NCBI RefSeq assembly: GCF_014779765.1
Contig: NZ_JACXZA010000002.1
Coordinates: 248,001 to 312,000 of the forward strand
Source: Paenibacillus terricola
Lineage (GTDB): Bacteria; Bacillota; Bacilli; Paenibacillales; Paenibacillaceae
Direction of reading: 5' to 3'
Length of the DNA: 64,000 nt
The notes below the pieces were generated by a model. That model saw nothing but the letters and a program-made list of their open reading frames with translations. It did not search any database and was not told where the DNA came from. Shown piece by piece: positions 22,623 through 38,539 of the stretch (its first letter is position 1; the number at the start of each line of letters is the position of its first letter). The position numbers and the translations under genes are program-made.

Positions 22623-22850
22623 ATGGAAAACAATAACAACCAAGGCGAATACATTGTTGTGAAGGCTAAGGAACAAGGCGTCGTCGTCATTGGACTGACA
22701 CGTGGCACCGATACGAAATTCCACCACACGGAGAAGCTTGATCGGGGCGAAGTGTTCATTTTTCAATTTACCGATCATACATCAGCCATCAAGATCCGTG
22801 GTAAAGCGACTGTCTTGACGAAGTATGGGACGATCGAAACGGATAACTAA
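22623..22850 (+). CDS. mtrB: Tryptophan RNA-binding attenuator protein TRAP
   Basis: 75 residues. TRAP forms an 11-subunit ring that, with tryptophan bound, wraps RNA carrying GAG/UAG triplets and causes trp operon termination. Recognised by the sequence around [32 protein letters not shown] and [16 protein letters not shown], including the Lys and Arg residues that contact RNA. ATG 22623 follows AGGGAGGGTG. In B. subtilis it follows mtrA (folE); here mtrA is absent and mtrB has its own promoter and a leader terminator. A likely target lies at 32.1 kb. Confidence 0.95.
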
Positions 22851-29218: not shown

Positions 29219-29998
29219 TTGGTGGATGCGGATTATGACAAGTTCGTGGAGCAGATCAAGAAACGAACCGCAATCGATCTCGGGCAGTACAAAGAAACGC
29301 AGATGAAACGTCGTCTAACGACGCTAAGACAGAAGCATGGATTTAGTACATTTGCAGCATACCTTGACGCTCTGGCGCGCGAGTCAGCTCTCATGGATGA
29401 GTTTCTAGACCGGATGACAATTAACGTATCTGAGTTCTGGCGCAATCCGAATCGATGGGCGATGCTCGAGGAACGATTTCTGCCCGAACTGCTGTCCGGC
29501 GGCAATCGGATAGCCATCTGGAGCGCAGCTTGCTCTACTGGTGACGAGCCTTATACGACGGCGATGATCTTGGATCGAATGGGCGCATTGAACCGCGCGA
29601 CGATTACGGCGACAGACCTCGATCAGAACGTAATCAAGAAAGCGCAGAGCGGCCTGTATCAGGATCGTTCGGTCCGCGATGTGCCCAAGCCGTATTTGAA
29701 CCAATATTTTACGCGCGACGGCGATATCTATTCGGTTGATGATCGGATCAAACGTGCCATTCGATACAAGCAGCACAATTTGCTTCATGATTCTTATGGC
29801 GGCCCCTATGATTTGATCATCTGCCGCAACGTTATGATCTACTTCACGGAAGAAGCGAAGCATCAGATCTACCAGCGGTTCTCGAATGCACTGAAGCCGG
29901 GTGGCATTCTGTTCGTCGGAAGCACGGAGCAGATATTCACTCCGCAGCAGTATAATTTCGAGACGGCTGAAACGTTCTTTTATCGGAAAAAAGTTTGA
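29219..29998 (+). CDS. cheR: Chemotaxis protein methyltransferase CheR
   Basis: 259 residues; methylates glutamates on chemoreceptors using SAM. The N-terminal helical domain with the receptor-binding arginine block (QMKRRLTTLRQKHG), the MTINVSEFWRN motif, the SAM loop SAACSTGDEPYT and the CRNVMIYF motif are all present. The start is TTG 29219 behind CAGGAGG. With motI (9.6 kb) it shows the organism is motile. Confidence 0.95.
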   Translation: MVDADYDKFVEQIKKRTAIDLGQYKETQMKRRLTTLRQKHGFSTFAAYLDALARESALMDEFLDRMTINVSEFWRNPNRWAMLEERFLPELLSGGNRIAIWSAACSTGDEPYTTAMILDRMGALNRATITATDLDQNVIKKAQSGLYQDRSVRDVPKPYLNQYFTRDGDIYSVDDRIKRAIRYKQHNLLHDSYGGPYDLIICRNVMIYFTEEAKHQIYQRFSNALKPGGILFVGSTEQIFTPQQYNFETAETFFYRKKV

Positions 29999-30126
29999 AG
30001 GTTCTCGTTATCGCTCCCATTCATCAGCACTCTTTCGCTCATATCAGCTGCACGAAGACGAATGTATGACAGCACCATCTTGTTGCTATACTAGGTTAAT
30101 GGAATCGAACGCCATGGAGGGACAAG

Positions 30127-30294
30127 ATGGATAAGCGCAAAGCGTTCGCAGCATACCGGCGCGGGTGGATTACGATCTCGGAATGTGCGCAAATTGTCGG
30201 TATGAGCTGTGAACAGCTTCGTACGGTAATGGATGGTCCGGGATCGGTCATCGAGCCGCCGGAACGTAATGAACGTACGTCAGTCATGCGATAA
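30127..30294 (+). CDS. Small protein with possible helix-turn-helix
   Basis: 55 residues, start ATG 30127 with GGAGGG six bases upstream and a strong terminator 22 bases after the stop, so it looks like a real transcription unit. The middle (WITISECAQIVGMSCEQLR) fits a DNA-binding helix-turn-helix of the excisionase/MerR type, but the protein is too short for more. It occupies the place where B. subtilis carries the chorismate synthase gene. The function is unknown. Confidence 0.55.
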   Translation: MDKRKAFAAYRRGWITISECAQIVGMSCEQLRTVMDGPGSVIEPPERNERTSVMR

Positions 30295-30315
30295 TTATCG
30301 GATCGGATTAAGCTG

Positions 30316-30345
30316 AACCAGCTGCTTCTAAGCAGCTGGTTTTTT
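30316..30345 (+). terminator. Terminator before aroB
   Basis: AACCAGCTGCT and AGCAGCTGGTT form a perfect 11-bp stem with a four-base loop, then T6. Confidence 0.92.
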
Positions 30346-30425
30346 GCTTCTGCAAGGTCTGTTTCAAAGGCTGTCAATGGCGCAGAAACCTTGCCCTATC
30401 AGCCTGTTCGCACACTTGACGTTTC

Positions 30426-30454
30426 TTGTCAAACCGAAGGGGCTGTACTATAAT
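30426..30454 (+). promoter_or_regulatory. aroB promoter
   Basis: TTGTCA and TATAAT at the ideal 17-base spacing, about 70 bases before the aroB start and after a terminator. It probably drives aroB-aroH. Confidence 0.75.
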
Positions 30455-30522
30455 TAGCAAAGATGTTACGGGTATATTCATTGCCGGGCTTCCAATAGCC
30501 GGTGAAGGGAGCGCAATGATAA

Positions 30523-31644
30523 GTGAACGGTACGAATGTAGTTAGAGAACTTACGGTTGATTTGGGCGAACGCTCCTATCCGATTTACATAGGAGAAGGT
30601 CTTCTCCAGGAGACTTCCGATTATCTTGAGAAGCATGGTGTAACCAAGAAATCGCCGCTCATGATCATTACAGACGATCATATTGCGCCGTTATATTTGG
30701 ATTCACTGGTATCGATTCTGTCAAGCGCAGGCTATAAGGTCACATCGGCTGTTGTACCTGCGGGCGAAGGCTCGAAGTCGCTGACGATGTTCGAAGATTT
30801 GATTACGAAGGCGCTTGATGCAGGACTTGACCGCAAATCGACGATTATCGCATTAGGCGGCGGTGTTGTAGGCGATCTTGCAGGTTATGTGGCAGCAGCA
30901 TATATGCGCGGCATTCGTTTCGTACAGATTCCAACAACGATTCTTGCGCACGACAGCAGTGTAGGCGGCAAGGTTGCTGTCAACCATCCGCATGCGAAGA
31001 ATATTATCGGCGCATTCCATCAGCCAGCATTCGTGTTGTTTGACTTGAACACGCTGCAATCGCTGCCGCTGCGCCAAGTGCAATGCGGCCTTGCGGAAGT
31101 AATCAAGCACGGCCTTATCTGGGACGCGTCCTTCGTCGACTGGTGCGATGAGAACATGGACAAGCTGCTCGCGCTTGATCCTGAAGCGCTTGGTTATGCG
31201 TTGTATAAAGGCTGCAGCGTTAAAGCGGCAGTCGTATCGGTCGATGAGCGTGAAGGCGGCCTGCGTGCCATCCTGAACCTGGGTCATACGATTGGCCATG
31301 CGCTTGAAGCGGTCGCTGGCTACGGTGAGCTTACGCATGGTGAAGCCATTGCAATCGGCATGATTGGATCTGCGCTTGTTGGGGTGAAGCTTGGTGCGCC
31401 GCAAGACGTGTACGATGTGACGAAACGCGTGTTTGGCAAGTCCGGCCTGCCGGTACGTTTGCCAGAGCATTTTGACACAGATGCCATTATGCGTGCAATG
31501 ATGCACGATAAGAAGTTTACGGAAGGCAGCATTGTCTATGTCGTGCCAACCGCAATCGGCCGGGTTGAGGTTCGTTCGGATGTAGCAGCCTCGCTCGTGC
31601 GTGAGACAGTAGAACAATTGAAACAGGAGGCCGATTGGCAATGA
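30523..31644 (+). CDS. aroB: 3-dehydroquinate synthase
   Basis: 373 residues; second shikimate-pathway step, converting DAHP to 3-dehydroquinate with NAD and a divalent metal. Motifs: IALGGGVVGDLAGYVA (NAD), AHDSSVGGKVAVNHPHAKN, GLAEVIKHGLI and LNLGHTIGHALEA with the metal-binding histidines. The start is GTG 30523, with GAAGGGAG about ten bases upstream. An ATG at 30516 is out of frame. It overlaps aroH by four bases. Confidence 0.97.
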   Translation: MNGTNVVRELTVDLGERSYPIYIGEGLLQETSDYLEKHGVTKKSPLMIITDDHIAPLYLDSLVSILSSAGYKVTSAVVPAGEGSKSLTMFEDLITKALDAGLDRKSTIIALGGGVVGDLAGYVAAAYMRGIRFVQIPTTILAHDSSVGGKVAVNHPHAKNIIGAFHQPAFVLFDLNTLQSLPLRQVQCGLAEVIKHGLIWDASFVDWCDENMDKLLALDPEALGYALYKGCSVKAAVVSVDEREGGLRAILNLGHTIGHALEAVAGYGELTHGEAIAIGMIGSALVGVKLGAPQDVYDVTKRVFGKSGLPVRLPEHFDTDAIMRAMMHDKKFTEGSIVYVVPTAIGRVEVRSDVAASLVRETVEQLKQEADWQ

Positions 31645-32009
31645 GTGTACGTGGAGTTCGCGGCGCCGTCACGGTAGAGCGCAATGAAGAAGGTCAAATT
31701 CTTGATGCAACAGTTGAATTGTTCAATGCGATCGTAGCAGAGAACGGATTCGCTCCAGAAGATATTTGCAGCGTATTGATTACGGTAACAGGCGAGTTGG
31801 ATTCGACCTTCCCTGCCAAAGCCATTCGAGTAATGCCAGGCTGGGAGCTTGTACCCGTAACATGCGCATTGGAAATTCCGGTTAAAGGCAGCTTGGAGAA
31901 ATGCATCCGTTTCATGCTCCATGTGAATACGACGAAGACGCAGGCCGAGATTAAACACGTCTATCTGAGAGGCGCGCGCTTGCTTCGTCCCGATCTGTCC
32001 AAAGCGTAA
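31641..32009 (+). CDS. aroH: Chorismate mutase, AroH type
   Basis: 122 residues; converts chorismate to prephenate for Phe and Tyr. This is the B. subtilis-type monofunctional trimeric fold, recognised by the start VRGVRGAVTVE, active-site arginine in that block and IRVMPGWELVPVTC. ATG 31641 overlaps the aroB stop (ATGA) and has CAGGAGG ten bases upstream. tyrA, the next step to tyrosine, lies at 40.6 kb. Confidence 0.95.
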   Translation: MSVRGVRGAVTVERNEEGQILDATVELFNAIVAENGFAPEDICSVLITVTGELDSTFPAKAIRVMPGWELVPVTCALEIPVKGSLEKCIRFMLHVNTTKTQAEIKHVYLRGARLLRPDLSKA

Positions 32010-32040
32010 TTGACGAATGGTTTCATGTGAGATTTTCTCA

Positions 32041-32069
32041 TTGACGTTCGTTAGTAGACGATGTATAGT
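32041..32069 (+). promoter_or_regulatory. trp operon promoter
   Basis: TTGACG, 17 bases, TATAGT: a near-consensus SigA promoter just after aroH. The predicted transcript starts near 32076, giving a trpE leader of about 325 nt. Confidence 0.75.
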
Positions 32070-32144
32070 TATACCAAGTTAAGTCGTTATTAGAACGTAA
32101 GTAGAGCAGTACAGACGAGGCAAGATAGAAGCAGTACAGACCGT

Positions 32145-32208
32145 GAGCAGTAGAAGCTAACGGTAGAGATGAGCAGAGCTGAGTATAGAAGAGATAAGCT
32201 TAGTTGAG
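32145..32208 (+). promoter_or_regulatory. TRAP-binding site: eleven NAG triplets in the trp leader
   Basis: Triplets start at 32145, 32151, 32164, 32171, 32176, 32181, 32186, 32191, 32196, 32201 and 32206. All are GAG or TAG except the AAG at 32196. From 32171 onward they recur at exact five-base spacing, i.e. triplet plus two-base spacer, the arrangement TRAP rings bind. Additional scattered TAG/GAG occur from 32091. mtrB at 22.6 kb encodes the ligand protein. Eleven triplets match the 11-subunit ring. Confidence 0.85.
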
Positions 32209-32347
32209 CGATTGATGAATGGACTTTGTTGAGGATTGTGGCATGTATTCCTAGGGATAATTAGGAATTATGCGGGCATTCTATCATCAAGGCACATTTC
32301 TTTCCTCGTATTCTCTCTTTGTATGCACTCATCCTACATGTTAAGCT
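32197..32347 (+). promoter_or_regulatory. Possible trp antiterminator pairing
   Basis: AGCTTAGT (32197-32204), inside the TRAP site, can pair with GTTAAGCT (32340-32347), which overlaps the 5' arm of the terminator. TRAP bound to the triplets would block this pairing and free the terminator. The pairing is eight bases with two wobbles. An intervening hairpin ATTCCTA/TAGGAAT is at about 32247-32268. The model is inference from base pairing. Confidence 0.5.
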
Positions 32348-32371
32348 CCTGCCATCGGCAGGAGCTTTTTT
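32343..32371 (+). terminator. trp leader terminator (attenuator)
   Basis: AAGCTCCTGCC-atc-GGCAGGAGCTT is a perfect 11-bp stem with a T run, ending 31 bases before the trpE start and after the trp promoter, so it acts within the trp leader rather than ending aroH. Confidence 0.92.
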
Positions 32372-32402
32372 AATTCAGATGAACACGAGGGAGAGATCCG
32401 CT

Positions 32403-33977
32403 ATGAACAACGAGCTGCAGCAAGTCATTCAACTAGCTGGTACGTACAACCTGATTCCAATCGTCCGCCACACGATGGCAGACACGGAAACACCGATTCG
32501 CGTGTTTCAACATTTCTACAAGGAGCGCAATGCGTTCCTGCTGGAAAGTGTGGAGGGCGGCGTACAATGGGCTCGTTATTCGTTCATCGGCACGGATCCA
32601 TTCCTTCTTCTATATGGCAAGAACGGCACGATGATTCTGGAGCAGCAGGGAGTGAAGACAGAGCTTCATGACAAGCCGCTCGAACTGCTCAAAGCGAAAC
32701 TGCGGTCCTATCGCAGCCCGCAGATCAAAGACCTTCCGCCATTCACTGGCGGTGCAATCGGCTTCTTCGGTTACGATCTGCTGCAATATTATGAGAAGCT
32801 GCCGAAGCATCGCGTTGATGATCTCAATATGAACGATCTGCAATTCATGTTCTGCGATCAAGTCATCGTCTTCGATCATATGAAGCAGCAAATTCAAGTA
32901 ATCGGCAACGTTCATATCGAAGAAGGCGCAACGGATCAGCAGATCCAAGCCGCATATGAAGCGACATGCGTTCGCATCGATGCGACGATCGAGAAGCTGC
33001 AGCAGCCGCTTCCGATGCAAATGACGAGCGGCGGACCGATTCCGCAAGATCCGGATCTCGGCGATGTGCAGTCGAACATGACGAAAGAGAAGTTCATATC
33101 GAATGTAGATGCAGCGAAGGAATATATTCGCGCCGGCGATATTTTCCAAGTAGTGCTTTCCCAACGCTTCAGTATTGAAACGGAAGTAGATCCGCTGCAT
33201 GTATACCGCGTGCTTCGCACGATGAACCCATCGCCATATATGTATTACCTGAAGCTTGACGATGAGATTATTGTAGGAACATCGCCGGAAGCGCTCGTTA
33301 AGGTCGAAGGAGACAAAGTTGAAACCCGTCCAATCGCGGGTACACGTCCAAGAGGCCGTACGCCGGAAGAAGATGCGGCACTAGAAGTCGAACTGCTGGC
33401 AGATGAGAAGGAACGCGCTGAACATCTGATGCTGGTTGACCTGGGCCGCAACGATATTGGCCGTGTCTCGGAGTTTGGTTCGGTTCACTGCGATTCCTAT
33501 ATGGAGATTGAGCGGTATTCGCACGTTATGCACATCGTATCGAATGTTAGCGGCAAGCTGCGTCAGGATAAAGACTTCTTCGATGCTTTCATCTCCTGCT
33601 TGCCAGCAGGTACGGTATCAGGCGCTCCTAAGCTTCGCGCTATGGAGATTATTGCAGAGTTTGAGAATGAATCGCGCGGCGCTTACGCAGGTGCGATTGG
33701 TTATCTCGGATTCGGCGGAAGCCTGAATACTTGCATCACGATTCGGACAATTATTTTCAAGAACGGCAAAGCGTATGTACAAGCTGGAGCAGGCATCGTA
33801 TGGGATTCGGTTCCGGAGAAGGAATACGAAGAGACGGTTAACAAAGCGAAAGCAAGCTTGAAGGCGATTCGGACAGCAGAGCTTCTGTTCGCGAGCGAGA
33901 AACGTACAACTGTTCAGGCGGGAACAACGATTAACACGGATTATGAAATGATTACGACGCAGGGGGCGAACAACTAA
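32403..33977 (+). CDS. trpE: Anthranilate synthase component I
   Basis: 524 residues; makes anthranilate from chorismate with a glutamine amidotransferase partner. Chorismate-binding motifs PSPYMYYLKL, ETRPIAGTRPRG, DLGRNDIGRVS and GTVSGAPKLRAME are intact. ATG 32403 is used, preceded by GAGGGAGAG; an upstream in-frame ATG at 32319 lies before the leader terminator and is excluded. No trpG follows; as in B. subtilis a shared PabA-type amidotransferase elsewhere is expected. It overlaps trpD by one base. Confidence 0.97.
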   Translation: MNNELQQVIQLAGTYNLIPIVRHTMADTETPIRVFQHFYKERNAFLLESVEGGVQWARYSFIGTDPFLLLYGKNGTMILEQQGVKTELHDKPLELLKAKLRSYRSPQIKDLPPFTGGAIGFFGYDLLQYYEKLPKHRVDDLNMNDLQFMFCDQVIVFDHMKQQIQVIGNVHIEEGATDQQIQAAYEATCVRIDATIEKLQQPLPMQMTSGGPIPQDPDLGDVQSNMTKEKFISNVDAAKEYIRAGDIFQVVLSQRFSIETEVDPLHVYRVLRTMNPSPYMYYLKLDDEIIVGTSPEALVKVEGDKVETRPIAGTRPRGRTPEEDAALEVELLADEKERAEHLMLVDLGRNDIGRVSEFGSVHCDSYMEIERYSHVMHIVSNVSGKLRQDKDFFDAFISCLPAGTVSGAPKLRAMEIIAEFENESRGAYAGAIGYLGFGGSLNTCITIRTIIFKNGKAYVQAGAGIVWDSVPEKEYEETVNKAKASLKAIRTAELLFASEKRTTVQAGTTINTDYEMITTQGANN

Positions 33978-35032
33978 TGACGACGTTGACGAATTCGACG
34001 ATCACGCTGGCAGGCGCGATGAACAAGCTGATCAGCGGGCAGCATCTGAACCGCGATGAAGCACAAGAAGTGATGGGCTACATCATGCGCGGCGAAGCGA
34101 CGCCTGCACAAATCGGCGGCATTGCGACTGCACTGCGTATGAAAGGCGAGACACGCGACGAAATTACAGGATTCGCCCTTGCGATGCGTGCTTATTCCAA
34201 TCATGTTATGACGGAACAGACTAACCTTCTAGATACATGCGGCACGGGCGGCTCCGGTATTCACAAATTCAATATTTCGACCTCCTCGTCCATCATCGCT
34301 GCAGCGGCTGGCGTTCGTGTAGCGAAACACGGCAACCGTGCGATGTCTGGCAAAACAGGCAGCGCGGATGTGCTGGAAGCGCTAGGCGTGAACATAACGC
34401 TGTCGCCGGAGCAAGCGGCAGCTTGTCTGAACGAGATCGGCATCGTGTTCATGTTCGCTCAGCTGTACCATCCTTCGCTGCGCCATGCGGCGGCACCGCG
34501 CAAAGAGCTTGGCATTCGGACGATTTTCAATATGCTTGGACCATTGACGAATCCAGCCGGCGCTGACCGTCAGTTGCTGGGCCTATATGATCGTACCAAG
34601 ACGGAGACGATTGCAGAAGTGCTGGGTGATCTTGGCCTGAAGCGTGCGATGGTTGTAAGCAGCCATGATGGTCTGGATGAGATCAGCATATCGGCGCCAA
34701 CGCAAATTTCGGAGCTGCAGGACGGCGTTGTACGGACGTACGATCTGACGCCGGAAGAGCTTGGATTGCGCCGTCATTCGATCGATGCGATAATTGGCGG
34801 AGAAGCTTCTGACAATGCAGCTATTATTCGATCGATTATGACGGGCCAAGAGCAGGGTGCTTATCGGGATGTTGTATTGGCGAATGCGGGTGCATGCATT
34901 TATATGGGCGGCGCTGTCAACTCGCTCAGCGAGGGCGTACAGCAGGCTGCGGCAATGATCGATTCCGGCAAAGCGCTTGCGAAGCTGGAACAGCTTATTC
35001 AAACGACGGGAGAGTTGGGACATGTTTCTTGA
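33977..35032 (+). CDS. trpD: Anthranilate phosphoribosyltransferase
   Basis: 351 residues; transfers phosphoribose to anthranilate. Motifs CGTGGSGIHKFNIST (PRPP loop), KHGNRAMSGKTGSADVLE and FAQLYHPSLRHAAAPRKELGIRT are intact. ATG 33977 overlaps the trpE stop (TAATG). The C-terminus overlaps trpC by 11 bases. Confidence 0.96.
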   Translation: MTTLTNSTITLAGAMNKLISGQHLNRDEAQEVMGYIMRGEATPAQIGGIATALRMKGETRDEITGFALAMRAYSNHVMTEQTNLLDTCGTGGSGIHKFNISTSSSIIAAAAGVRVAKHGNRAMSGKTGSADVLEALGVNITLSPEQAAACLNEIGIVFMFAQLYHPSLRHAAAPRKELGIRTIFNMLGPLTNPAGADRQLLGLYDRTKTETIAEVLGDLGLKRAMVVSSHDGLDEISISAPTQISELQDGVVRTYDLTPEELGLRRHSIDAIIGGEASDNAAIIRSIMTGQEQGAYRDVVLANAGACIYMGGAVNSLSEGVQQAAAMIDSGKALAKLEQLIQTTGELGHVS

Positions 35033-35828
35033 TCGCATCGTAGTAACGAAGAAGCAGGAAGTAGAGGAGCTGTCCGGACGGTTCTCACTTGAAGCATATG
35101 AGCGGCGTATTGCAGATATGGCGGCTACGCTCGGCTTCGAGCGTGCCGTGTCGGCAGCGGGACGCAAGCGTCCTATGGGCTTGATTGCAGAAGTAAAGAA
35201 GGCTTCCCCTTCCAAAGGGTTAATTCGTGAAGATTTCCATCCTGTTCACCTGGCGCGCGCCTACGAAGAGGCGGGTACGGATTGCATCTCGGTTCTGACG
35301 GACCGCGATTACTTCCAAGGCTCGAATGAGTACTTGCAGGCTGTTCGCCAAGCCGTTAATGTGCCGCTGCTGCGCAAAGATTTTACGATTGATTATCGTC
35401 AGATCTATGAAGCTCGTGATCTCGGCGCCGATGCAGTACTCCTCATTGCAGCCATTCTGACGAAGGAACAATTGTCGGAGTTCCACGACATTGCGAAGTC
35501 CATTGGACTTGATGCGCTTGTGGAAGTGCATGACCGCCAAGAACTCGAGACGGTATTGGAACTCGACAAGGCTACGCTCATCGGTATCAATAACCGTGAT
35601 CTGCGTTCCTTCGTGACCAATCTGAAGACGACAGAAGAGTTGATTGGCATTATTCCGAAGGGCAAAGGCATTACCCTCATTAGCGAGAGCGGTATTGCAG
35701 GCGTAGACGATATGGCTTACTTGAAATCGGTTGGAGCAGACGGTGTTCTGATCGGCGAGCATTTCATGCGCAAGCCGCATGTCGGCAATGCCATTGAGGA
35801 GCTGATGGGACCGGTGGGCGTACGATGA
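35022..35828 (+). CDS. trpC: Indole-3-glycerol phosphate synthase
   Basis: 268 residues, TIM barrel. Motifs: LIAEVKKASPSKG (catalytic Lys), ISVLTDRDYFQGS, LRKDFTIDYRQIYEAR, IGINNRDL and ISESGI. ATG 35022 gives the usual MFLDRIVVTKKQEV start, overlapping trpD; only a weak ribosome site (GAGTTGGGA), so translational coupling is likely. It overlaps trpF by four bases. Confidence 0.96.
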   Translation: MFLDRIVVTKKQEVEELSGRFSLEAYERRIADMAATLGFERAVSAAGRKRPMGLIAEVKKASPSKGLIREDFHPVHLARAYEEAGTDCISVLTDRDYFQGSNEYLQAVRQAVNVPLLRKDFTIDYRQIYEARDLGADAVLLIAAILTKEQLSEFHDIAKSIGLDALVEVHDRQELETVLELDKATLIGINNRDLRSFVTNLKTTEELIGIIPKGKGITLISESGIAGVDDMAYLKSVGADGVLIGEHFMRKPHVGNAIEELMGPVGVR

Positions 35829-36538
35829 GCGATGCTTCTCGTCCCACGGTAAGTCAGGGAACCTATACGCGGATCAAAATATGCGGGCTGCGTGACACTG
35901 CAACCATTCGTGATATGCATGATCTAGACATCGAGGCTGTTGGCTTCATATTCGCGCCGAGCAAACGGCAAGTTTCAGCAGAACAAGCTGCTGAACTCAT
36001 AGCAGAAGTGCGTGCTTGGAAAGCGCCGACTTCGTCGGGGCAAGCGCCGCTTGCGGTAGGCGTATTCGTTAATAGCGACCTCGCTTCGCTTGCGCATGCC
36101 GTGAATACGGCTTCGCTGGACGTCGTTCAGCTTCATGGCAGTGAAACGCCGGAAGACTGTGAAGCAGCGAAGCGGGAGCTTGGCGTTCAAGTGTGGAAAG
36201 TGTTCCACCTTGGCCGCGACGGAGGAGAGTCGAATGTCGTCGATGCGAAGCAGCAATTGATGCCATATAAAGGGCATGTTGATGCAGTGTTGATCGATAC
36301 GGCAGGCGGCGGAACGGGAACCGCTTTCGATTGGTCAGTCATTAATCGCTACAAGGAAGCATCCGCTGAGATTGGCGTTCCCCTCTACGTGGCGGGAGGC
36401 CTGAGTCTCGATAATGTAGAGTTCTTGGTCAAGGAATACAGCCCTGACGGTGTAGACGTCTCCAGCGGCGTTGAGACGGACGGGGTTAAAGATATCGACA
36501 AAATCAAAACATTCGTAAGAAAGGTGTGGGAAGCATGA
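35825..36538 (+). CDS. trpF: Phosphoribosylanthranilate isomerase
   Basis: 237 residues, TIM barrel. The catalytic-cysteine motif KICGLRD is near residue 19, followed by [20 protein letters not shown] and VDVSSGVE near the end. The N-terminal 15 residues are a small extension. It overlaps trpC and trpB by four bases each (ATGA), showing tight coupling. Confidence 0.95.
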
Positions 36539-37740
36539 CCCAATTACCTGACGAGAGAGGCCGGTTTGGCCAGTTCGGCGGGCGCTACGTTCCAGAGACG
36601 TTGATGAATGCGCTGAATGAGCTCGAAGAGGCATACAATATGTATTCGAAAGACCCGGAATTTCAAGCGGAGCTTCGTTATTTGCTCGACAAATATTCCG
36701 GACGTCCAACGTCGCTCTACTACGCAGAGCGGCTGACGAAGAAGCTTGGCGGCGCAAAGATCTATCTCAAGCGCGAGGACCTGAACCATACGGGTGCGCA
36801 CAAAATCAACAATACGCTTGGTCAAGGGCTCCTTGCGAAGCGTATGGGCAAAACGAAGATCATTGCAGAAACGGGCGCCGGACAACACGGTGTTGCTTCC
36901 GCCACTGTCGCGGCGCTGCTCGGTATGGAATGCAAAGTGTTCATGGGCGAAGAGGACACGAAGCGTCAACAGCTGAACGTATTCCGTATGCAGCTGCTCG
37001 GCGCAGAAGTCGTACCTGTCATGTCTGGCACTCGTACGCTTAAGGATGCATGCAACGAAACGCTTCGTTACTGGGTTAGCAACGTTGATGACACGTACTA
37101 TATTCTTGGTTCGGTTACAGGACCACATCCTTATCCGCAAATTGTCCGCGACTTCCAACGCATTATCGGCGACGAAGCTCGGGAGCAAATGTTGAAGGAA
37201 GAGGGACGTCTTCCGGACTACGTTGTCGCAGCGGTTGGCGGCGGCAGCAACGCGATCGGTATTTTCTATCCGTTCGTCGAAGATGAGTCGGTTAAGCTGA
37301 TCGGGGTAGAAGCAGCCGGCAAGGGCGTCGATACGGACGAACATGCTGCTACGATGACCAAAGGCCGTCACGGCGTCTTCCAAGGCTCGCTCAGCTATGT
37401 ACTGCAGGATGAGTACGGTCAAGTACAGCCGGCTCACTCGATTTCCGCTGGACTTGATTACCCAGGCATCGGCCCTGAGCATGCTTACCTCAAAGATTCG
37501 GGCCGTGCCAAGTATGTACCGATTACGGATGCAGAAGCTCTGGAAGCCCTTCAACTTCTATCGCGTACGGAAGGTATTCTTCCGGCATTAGAATCGGCAC
37601 ACGCGATCGCGCAGACGATCAAGCTGGCCCCAACGCTCGGCGAAGACGAGATTATCGTCGTCAGCTTGTCCGGCCGCGGCGACAAAGACGTAGAAGCGAT
37701 CATGGGCTACTTGGGAGGTGACGGCAATGAATCTCATTGA
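36535..37740 (+). CDS. trpB: Tryptophan synthase beta chain
   Basis: 401 residues, PLP enzyme condensing indole and serine. The motif [11 protein letters not shown] holds the PLP lysine; [20 protein letters not shown] and [10 protein letters not shown] are intact. ATG 36535 overlaps the trpF stop, with AAGGTGTGGG upstream. It overlaps trpA by 14 bases. Confidence 0.97.
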
Positions 37741-38539
37741 TGCAACTTTTGCTCGATTGAAGGAACAGGACGGTACTGCTCTTATCCCGTTCCTTACGAT
37801 TGGCGATCCTGATTATGCGACTTCGGTCCAAATTATCCGCAAGCTCGAAGAAGCAGGCGCCGATATGATTGAGCTCGGCGTACCTTATTCAGATCCACTA
37901 GCTGACGGGCCTGTCATTCAACGGGCTTCGGAACGTGCGCTAGCTGGCGGACAAGTGACGATTGAAGGCGTGCTCAATGTTGCTGAAGAAGCTCGCAAAA
38001 CTGGCGTTAAGCTTCCGTTCATTCTGTTCACGTACTTCAACCCTGTACTGCAGCTCGGATTTGAGCGTTTCTTCGAGCTCTGCATGGATAAGGGCATCAG
38101 CGGACTTATTATTCCGGATCTGCCGCTCGAAGAAGACGGCGACCTGCGTGAGATGGCCGAAGAGGCGAACATTCACCTCATTCCGCTCGTGGCGCCTACT
38201 TCGAAGGAACGTGTTGCTCGCATTGCAGCACGTGCCCGTGGCTTCGTCTACTGCGTATCCTCGCTAGGTGTTACTGGTGTTCGCGCCGACTTCCATGCTG
38301 GCATTGACGAGTTCCTCTCGGACGTTCGCGCTGCAGCGGAAGTGCCTATCGCGGTGGGCTTCGGCATCTCGAGCCGTGAACAGGTTGAACGCTTCAGCAA
38401 GCAGAGCGACGGCGTCATCGTCGGCAGCGCGATTGTTCGCAAGATCGAAGAGGTATTGCCGAAGCTTCGTAACGAAGCGGAGCAAGAGGCGGCGCTTGAA
38501 GAGATCAGTCAATTCGTAGCAAACTTGAAAGTCCGCTAA
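37727..38539 (+). CDS. trpA: Tryptophan synthase alpha chain
   Basis: 270 residues, cleaves indole-3-glycerol phosphate. Motifs [19 protein letters not shown] (catalytic Glu and Asp), [11 protein letters not shown] and [10 protein letters not shown] are intact. ATG 37727 is used because GGGAGGTG lies seven bases before it; the GTG at 37718 is part of that ribosome site. It is the last trp gene and is followed by a terminator. Confidence 0.96.

Follow-up and report, generated by a model that had tools for sequence, protein, structure and literature searches.

A predicted long-range TRAP attenuator ahead of trpEDCFBA in Paenibacillus terricola

The leader of trpE in Paenibacillus terricola raises the question of how TRAP might govern a terminator that lies far beyond its putative binding site. 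The window, by which we mean the whole 64,000-nucleotide stretch of DNA that was analysed, carries an aro-trp cluster (Table 1) in which 393 nt separate aroH from trpE, and this gap contains a promoter, NAG triplets and a terminator. The gene at 34977-35828, named by its position and sequence, is presumably trpC, and the nearest named relative found was P. cellulosilyticus (96% for TrpE). A first-pass annotation of this DNA had proposed that trpE is subject to TRAP attenuation with a long-range antiterminator, and this is well supported: a TRAP gene is present, as are an array and a terminator, and all three are conserved in relatives. From sequence and folding models, we put the probability that this leader is a TRAP-dependent transcription attenuator of trpEDCFBA with a long-range switch at roughly 0.8.

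Table 1. Features of the trp leader and associated genes, with window coordinates and the basis of each assignment.
Feature	Position	Strand	Basis
mtrB (TRAP, 75 aa)	22623-22850	+	PF02081, E 6.3e-39
aroB and aroH (aro-trp cluster)	30523-32009	+	DHQ synthase and CM_1 domain matches
trp promoter, TTGACG-17-TATAGT	32041-32069	+	10/12 consensus matches
Upstream NAG cluster TAG CAG CAG GAG AAG, five-base spacing	32102-32124	+	chain count
Possible hairpin CCGT...ACGG between the two NAG clusters	32141-32163	+	fold; weak
Predicted antiterminator, 5' half	32150-32173	+	22 pairs, 21 in minimum-energy fold
Putative main TRAP-binding array, nine NAG at exact five-base spacing	32166-32208	+	chain count, shuffles, relatives
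Possible antiterminator extension, pairs with 32315-32326	32183-32193	+	duplex prediction only
Intervening region, self-folding	32209-32327	+	-32.5 kcal/mol alone
Candidate sequestering sequence for trpE ribosome-binding site	32302-32318	+	fold; CTCTC invariant 6/6
Predicted antiterminator, 3' half, overlaps terminator 5' arm	32328-32352	+	folding, genus consensus
Terminator, 11-bp stem AAGCTCCTGCC/GGCAGGAGCTT and T run	32343-32371	+	sequence, folding
Shine-Dalgarno region of trpE	32387-32395	+	direct sequence reading
trpE	32403-33977	+	PF04715 and PF00425
trpD, trpC, trpF, trpB, trpA	33977-38539	+	Pfam matches for D, F, B, A

Chorismate synthase (aroC/aroF) was not seen between cheR and aroB in the window, where 29998-30523 leaves only about 520 nt. 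In three genomes (G002, G004 and G005) a 1086-bp chorismate synthase match lies no more than about 3 kb from trpE, on the contig that carries it; in two others (G000 and G001) the sole match is another, shorter one on a separate contig, and G003 has both. It looks as if a second copy replaces the chorismate synthase of the aro-trp cluster.

The leaders compared below were drawn from the family and from beyond it. For the family, 78 genomes were taken from the 181 with a TrpE match, representing 17 of 19 genera (g5 and g10 are missing), and together with 80 named loci and the window they gave 159 leaders, 135 of them distinct over the last 250 nt; 134 were used, G073 being left out as one without a detected terminator. 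Outside the family, 62 genomes were chosen, 57 had TrpE, and 40 leaders were fetched, 13 from the order and 27 from the class; one order leader (G198) had no terminator, leaving 12. Arrays and terminators were called by one script for all groups rather than by hand. The four clade alignments (n = 6, 19, 19 and 6 leaders) were chosen by the analyst, and four initially listed leaders were omitted from that of clade B before aligning.

The main array (GAG GAG GAG GAG TAG GAG AAG TAG GAG) is the longest chain of NAG triplets at exact five-base spacing on either strand of the 64 kb, and a chain of nine was reached in none of 5000 dinucleotide-preserving shuffles of 32145-32210. The eight triplets reported earlier from 32171 to 32208 are all present, and a ninth in phase, GAG 32166, had been missed; of three more that had been added to them, TAG 32151 is in phase, but GAG 32145 is out of phase and TAG 32164 overlaps GAG 32166. 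The second-longest chain, the five triplets of the upstream cluster, lies within the same trpE leader, and outside that leader the longest, among the matches listed for both strands of the 64 kb, has four. Because a five-triplet chain was reached in 72 of 5000 shuffles of 32076-32163, the upstream cluster alone is only suggestive; NAG-GAG-AAG at five-base spacing is found there in all six genus members, with a first N that varies between C, T and G, as would be expected for a TRAP site. Altogether, 32076-32208 holds 30 NAG triplets, not all usable at once, so that arriving at exactly eleven depends on which of them are counted. Between TAG 32151 and GAG 32206 there are twelve five-base slots, ten of them occupied by NAG (32156 and 32161 lack it); read after the fact, such a register would suit a 12-mer.

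Phased arrays recur in relatives, in keeping with the first-pass annotation, which had made its proposal depend on conservation of the phasing. Chains of at least five triplets at exact spacing were found within the last 650 nt of 125 of the 134 family leaders, as compared with 4 of 2680 dinucleotide shuffles, and within the last 330 nt of 113 (6 of 2680 shuffles). In four leaders of genus g7 (L081, L082, L083 and L087) the array is weak and lies some 430-570 nt ahead of trpE, and the terminator is a different one of 13 bp; control of trpE may differ in these. At the start of trpG, no phased NAG array was found in six genus members (L246-L251). Searching the own genome for the phased NAG pattern gave 8 and 5 matches on the two strands, and a pattern control gave 9 and 9. 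Short phased runs lie at L016 1959-1991 and L017 1996-2038 (minus), one adjoining the 3' end of what we take to be an mnmA-like ORF and the other overlapping the start of a presumed methyltransferase-like ORF; with the control yielding as many matches, we set these extra patterns aside as chance-like or unproven.

The promoter and the terminator placed around these triplets by the first-pass annotation were likewise found. Shuffled regions hold a mean of 1.5 sites as good as the promoter, and its hexamers, with a spacing of 17-18, are kept in all six genus members. The terminator stem (32343-32367), which runs into the T run, has 11 pairs, 7 of them GC, and an energy of -19.2 kcal/mol; the median terminator energy is -15.5 kcal/mol in the family and -13.1 kcal/mol in other Bacilli. 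One could envision that this terminator merely ends the aroB-aroH transcript and that the purine-rich leader is incidental, since the terminator lies after aroH and would stop readthrough from that side too. However, a genus-conserved promoter stands between aroH and the terminator, and the phased triplets go beyond chance and recur in relatives, so we give this explanation very little credence. Another kind of tryptophan attenuator, under T-box or leader-peptide control, would belong to classes that are common for amino-acid operons. No Rfam family reached its gathering threshold in the window, the T-box model included, and at E up to 10 the region 31950-32450 gave only three weak, unrelated Rfam matches, none of them to the T-box model. 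Within 32070-32402 there is no TGGTGG, and the one plus-strand ORF of at least 6 aa with a Trp codon (45 aa, TTG start) has just one such codon. We consider control of this kind extremely improbable.

As annotated, TRAP is encoded in the window itself, by an mtrB gene with a strong domain match (Table 1) that is present as a single copy in the own genome. The TRAP gene was found in all six genus genomes, in all 197 family genomes searched and in 120 of 161 genomes drawn from the class, 13 of which belong to the family. A TrpE match at 1e-100 was absent from 16 of these 197 family genomes (g5 and g7), though TRAP was present in every one. The first-pass annotation had equated eleven triplets with the ring size of TRAP, and this equation is not supported: at B. 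subtilis positions 15 and 72 the window TRAP has K and T, a published 12-mer signature, and nine triplets are exactly phased, with further phased ones upstream (32102-32124). The cited portion of PMC3184956 associates K15 and T72 with the B. halodurans ring of 12 subunits and also notes the combination for Paenibacillus. Of the solved chains that hold a single copy, 3zzl (the B. halodurans 12-mer) matches best; higher scores go to two tandem two-copy chains. We infer from its sequence that the window TRAP would form a 12-mer ring. The number of subunits may differ between members of the family, since among 37 translated TRAP loci (7, two of them the window's own, plus the best 30 of the family matches) position 15 is E or H, or position 72 is S, in some other genera. 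Anti-TRAP (rtpA, PF15777) was not found in the own genome; the sole match among the 59 genomes searched, 36 of them from the family, came from one family genome (G028, E 5.7e-14).

Folding suggests how binding at the array could reach the terminator. In nascent RNA extending up to the terminator 5' arm, 32150-32173 pairs with 32328-32352 in a predicted 22-bp helix with small bulges, the 5' half of which overlaps triplets 32164-32173, and the predicted antiterminator and terminator folds are mutually exclusive. When the leader was folded with and without 32145-32208 blocked, as had been proposed, the mean antiterminator probability in RNA to 32360 was 0.88 free and 0.00 blocked; of the pairs sampled, most inner ones reached 0.85-0.89, two outer ones 0.63-0.64, and 32158-32343 stood at 0.41. 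After its 3' arm has emerged, the terminator reaches an equilibrium probability of 0.97-0.99 with or without the block, so the switch would have to be kinetic, decided during transcription. The stability of the nascent leader is ordinary (z = -1.12; 27 of 200 shuffles are as good).

Other pairings of the leader were considered as well. The first-pass annotation had assigned AGCTTAGT, within the array, to the terminator 5' arm, and this pairing is possible on paper, but as an antiterminator it is rejected: its probability in the nascent ensemble is 0.00, and the duplex of this stretch comes to -6.7 vs -25.5 kcal/mol. A first guess that GCAGAGCT (32173-32180) pairs with the terminator arm was superseded by the 32150-32173 helix. 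The possible extension of the helix (32183-32193 with 32315-32326) is absent from both the genus RNAalifold consensus and the nascent minimum-energy fold. The sequence of the intervening region is poorly kept in the genus; its folding may bring the antiterminator halves together. A hairpin at 32141-32163 would compete with the antiterminator 5' half, and in alignment A1 it has 91.7% of cells paired and one two-sided change, as compared with 66.7% for a +3 slide and with 160 of 500 shuffles that equal it.

Given no structure, RNAalifold predicts 21 long-range pairs for the nascent leaders of the genus, of which 15 are shared with the window's 22-bp helix, and the outer six use 32147-32153 instead of the window's 32150-32157. 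In this consensus 96.8% of cells are paired, against 30-44% when slid, and there are two two-sided changes; with six sequences, the covariation shuffle control is weak (43/500). Clade B, also of six members, has a 20-pair counterpart by RNAalifold, and its shuffle control (322/500) gives no covariation signal because the members are too alike. For the two 19-leader groups the RNAalifold consensus has only nine and six long-range pairs, at -0.29 and -3.17 kcal/mol; none shows a two-sided change, and all of them link the array to the stretch immediately preceding the terminator arm, short of the arm itself.

The arm region, defined as the terminator arm and the preceding 20 nt, pairs with the array at a mean probability of 0.64 over the 134 leaders, vs 0.50 and 0.53 for shuffled arrays; the native value exceeds the mean of mono-shuffles in 122 leaders and of block shuffles in 118, the leaders being non-independent. 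A probability above 0.5 was reached by 116 of the 134 native leaders and by 928 of 1608 and 1021 of 1608 shuffled arrays, many of which also pair because purine arrays fit pyrimidine-rich partners. Against shuffled 5' regions, duplex energies have a mean z of only -0.96. Cross-genus complementarity of the six loop-proximal terminator-arm bases to the array was negative (30 of 128 for the own array vs 136 of 640 for others), perhaps because bulged helices and repeats defeat exact 6-mers, and where along the array the arm's partner lies did not distinguish the family from other Bacilli (p = 0.66). That several tests of the RNA helix are weak or negative is what one might see if bound TRAP itself induced termination and the RNA switch were secondary, as in a B. 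subtilis-type system; TRAP and an array are present here, and B. subtilis TRAP terminates even with the attenuator deleted, according to the cited part of PMC3913778. However, the array here ends 134 nt before the terminator, the terminator is a strong one (11 bp, 7 GC and a T run), and the antiterminator register is kept in the genus. We thus regard direct induction of termination by TRAP as unlikely, and prefer attenuation through the long-range RNA switch.

The distance in question is the 134 bases between 32208 and 32343, close to the figure of about 130 nt that had earlier been remarked on as unlike B. subtilis, and it is no peculiarity of the window. From the last triplet to the terminator, the 134 family leaders have a median gap of 124.5 nt and the 12 leaders from the order's other families one of 110 nt, vs 22 nt for the 27 from other Bacilli. 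The gap is at least 47 nt long in all 12 of those other order leaders and in every family leader but one (133 of 134, the exception being G076); among other Bacilli, 3 of 27 have so long a gap and are the exceptions in the class. In our sample, these medians and counts make the remote terminator a feature of the order, with exceptions, and a long-range version of the TRAP attenuator appears to characterise the order.

In the attenuator that we favour, a TRAP ring, probably a 12-mer, would bind the array at 32166-32208 when tryptophan is plentiful, perhaps together with upstream triplets, and would occupy the antiterminator 5' half (32150-32173). The 3' half (32328-32352) would then be left free, its last part would form the terminator at 32343-32371, and transcription would halt before trpE. 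Under tryptophan scarcity, TRAP would remain unbound, and the two halves would pair across about 154 nt in the interval after the terminator 5' arm has emerged and before the 3' arm does, so that the polymerase would read through. Translation may be touched too: in the folded leader the Shine-Dalgarno region (32386-32397) pairs with 32295-32325 at a mean probability of 0.69, and this pairing falls to 0.0 when the antiterminator is forced, yet the Shine-Dalgarno region is then only 39% unpaired, and blocking the array alone leaves the pairing unchanged at 0.69. The pairing is similar to the B. subtilis hairpin at the ribosome site, and control of trpE translation is a guess from the folding model. 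A broader scheme, which we hold tentatively and think somewhat doubtful as a whole, would extend remote TRAP attenuation to the entire order: a 12-mer would read one or two NAG clusters and act purely via an RNA helix spanning more than 100 nt on a strong terminator beyond the protein's reach, while the same helix would free the trpE ribosome site and anti-TRAP would be unneeded.

The TRAP attenuator itself is already known, and judged by sequence all of its defining features are found here; what is new is the architecture, in which the putative array lies far from the terminator in most sampled leaders of the order. Titles and abstract openings among the literature matches listed report no TRAP leader in Paenibacillus, an absence that says little because subscription literature is thinly covered there, and the cited main text of an RNA-seq study of P. 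riograndensis (PMC5670726) has neither trpE nor tryptophan.

Like the trp leader of B. subtilis, this one combines an mtrB-encoded TRAP with NAG triplets having two- or three-base spacers, a competing antiterminator and terminator ahead of trpE, and possible sequestration of the ribosome site. Unlike it, it has nine exactly phased triplets and a second cluster, its predicted antiterminator 5' half lies at the start of the phased array, and anti-TRAP was not found in its own genome. B. subtilis trpG has a TRAP site, in contrast to trpG here, where no phased site was seen. The distance from array to terminator is 134 nt as compared with about 16 in B. subtilis, where the array ends near +91. The terminator is strong here and weak in B. 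subtilis, in which it lies at +108 to +133, with 4 GC among 10 pairs and a broken U run, in the cited part of PMC3913778. Having the terminator right after the triplets belongs to the B. subtilis version and is no part of the TRAP mechanism as such. B. halodurans shares with the window a TRAP with K15 and T72 and an excess of NAG triplets over subunits (19 there, in the cited portion of PMC3184956; 30 NAG here); unlike the one described here, its terminator is weak, with mismatches (PMC3913778, cited part), and a long-range architecture goes unmentioned in the cited text. For B. subtilis, whether TRAP acts through RNA switching or has a more direct role in termination is open, because its weak terminator is efficient only when TRAP is bound, and termination persists when that terminator is deleted (PMC3913778, cited part). 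Here, with a strong terminator and a putative TRAP site more than 100 nt apart in most sampled leaders of the order, the two roles would be separated by nature, which makes the question of RNA switch versus direct TRAP action directly testable, and the order offers natural candidates for 12-mer TRAP, together with their arrays, for comparison.
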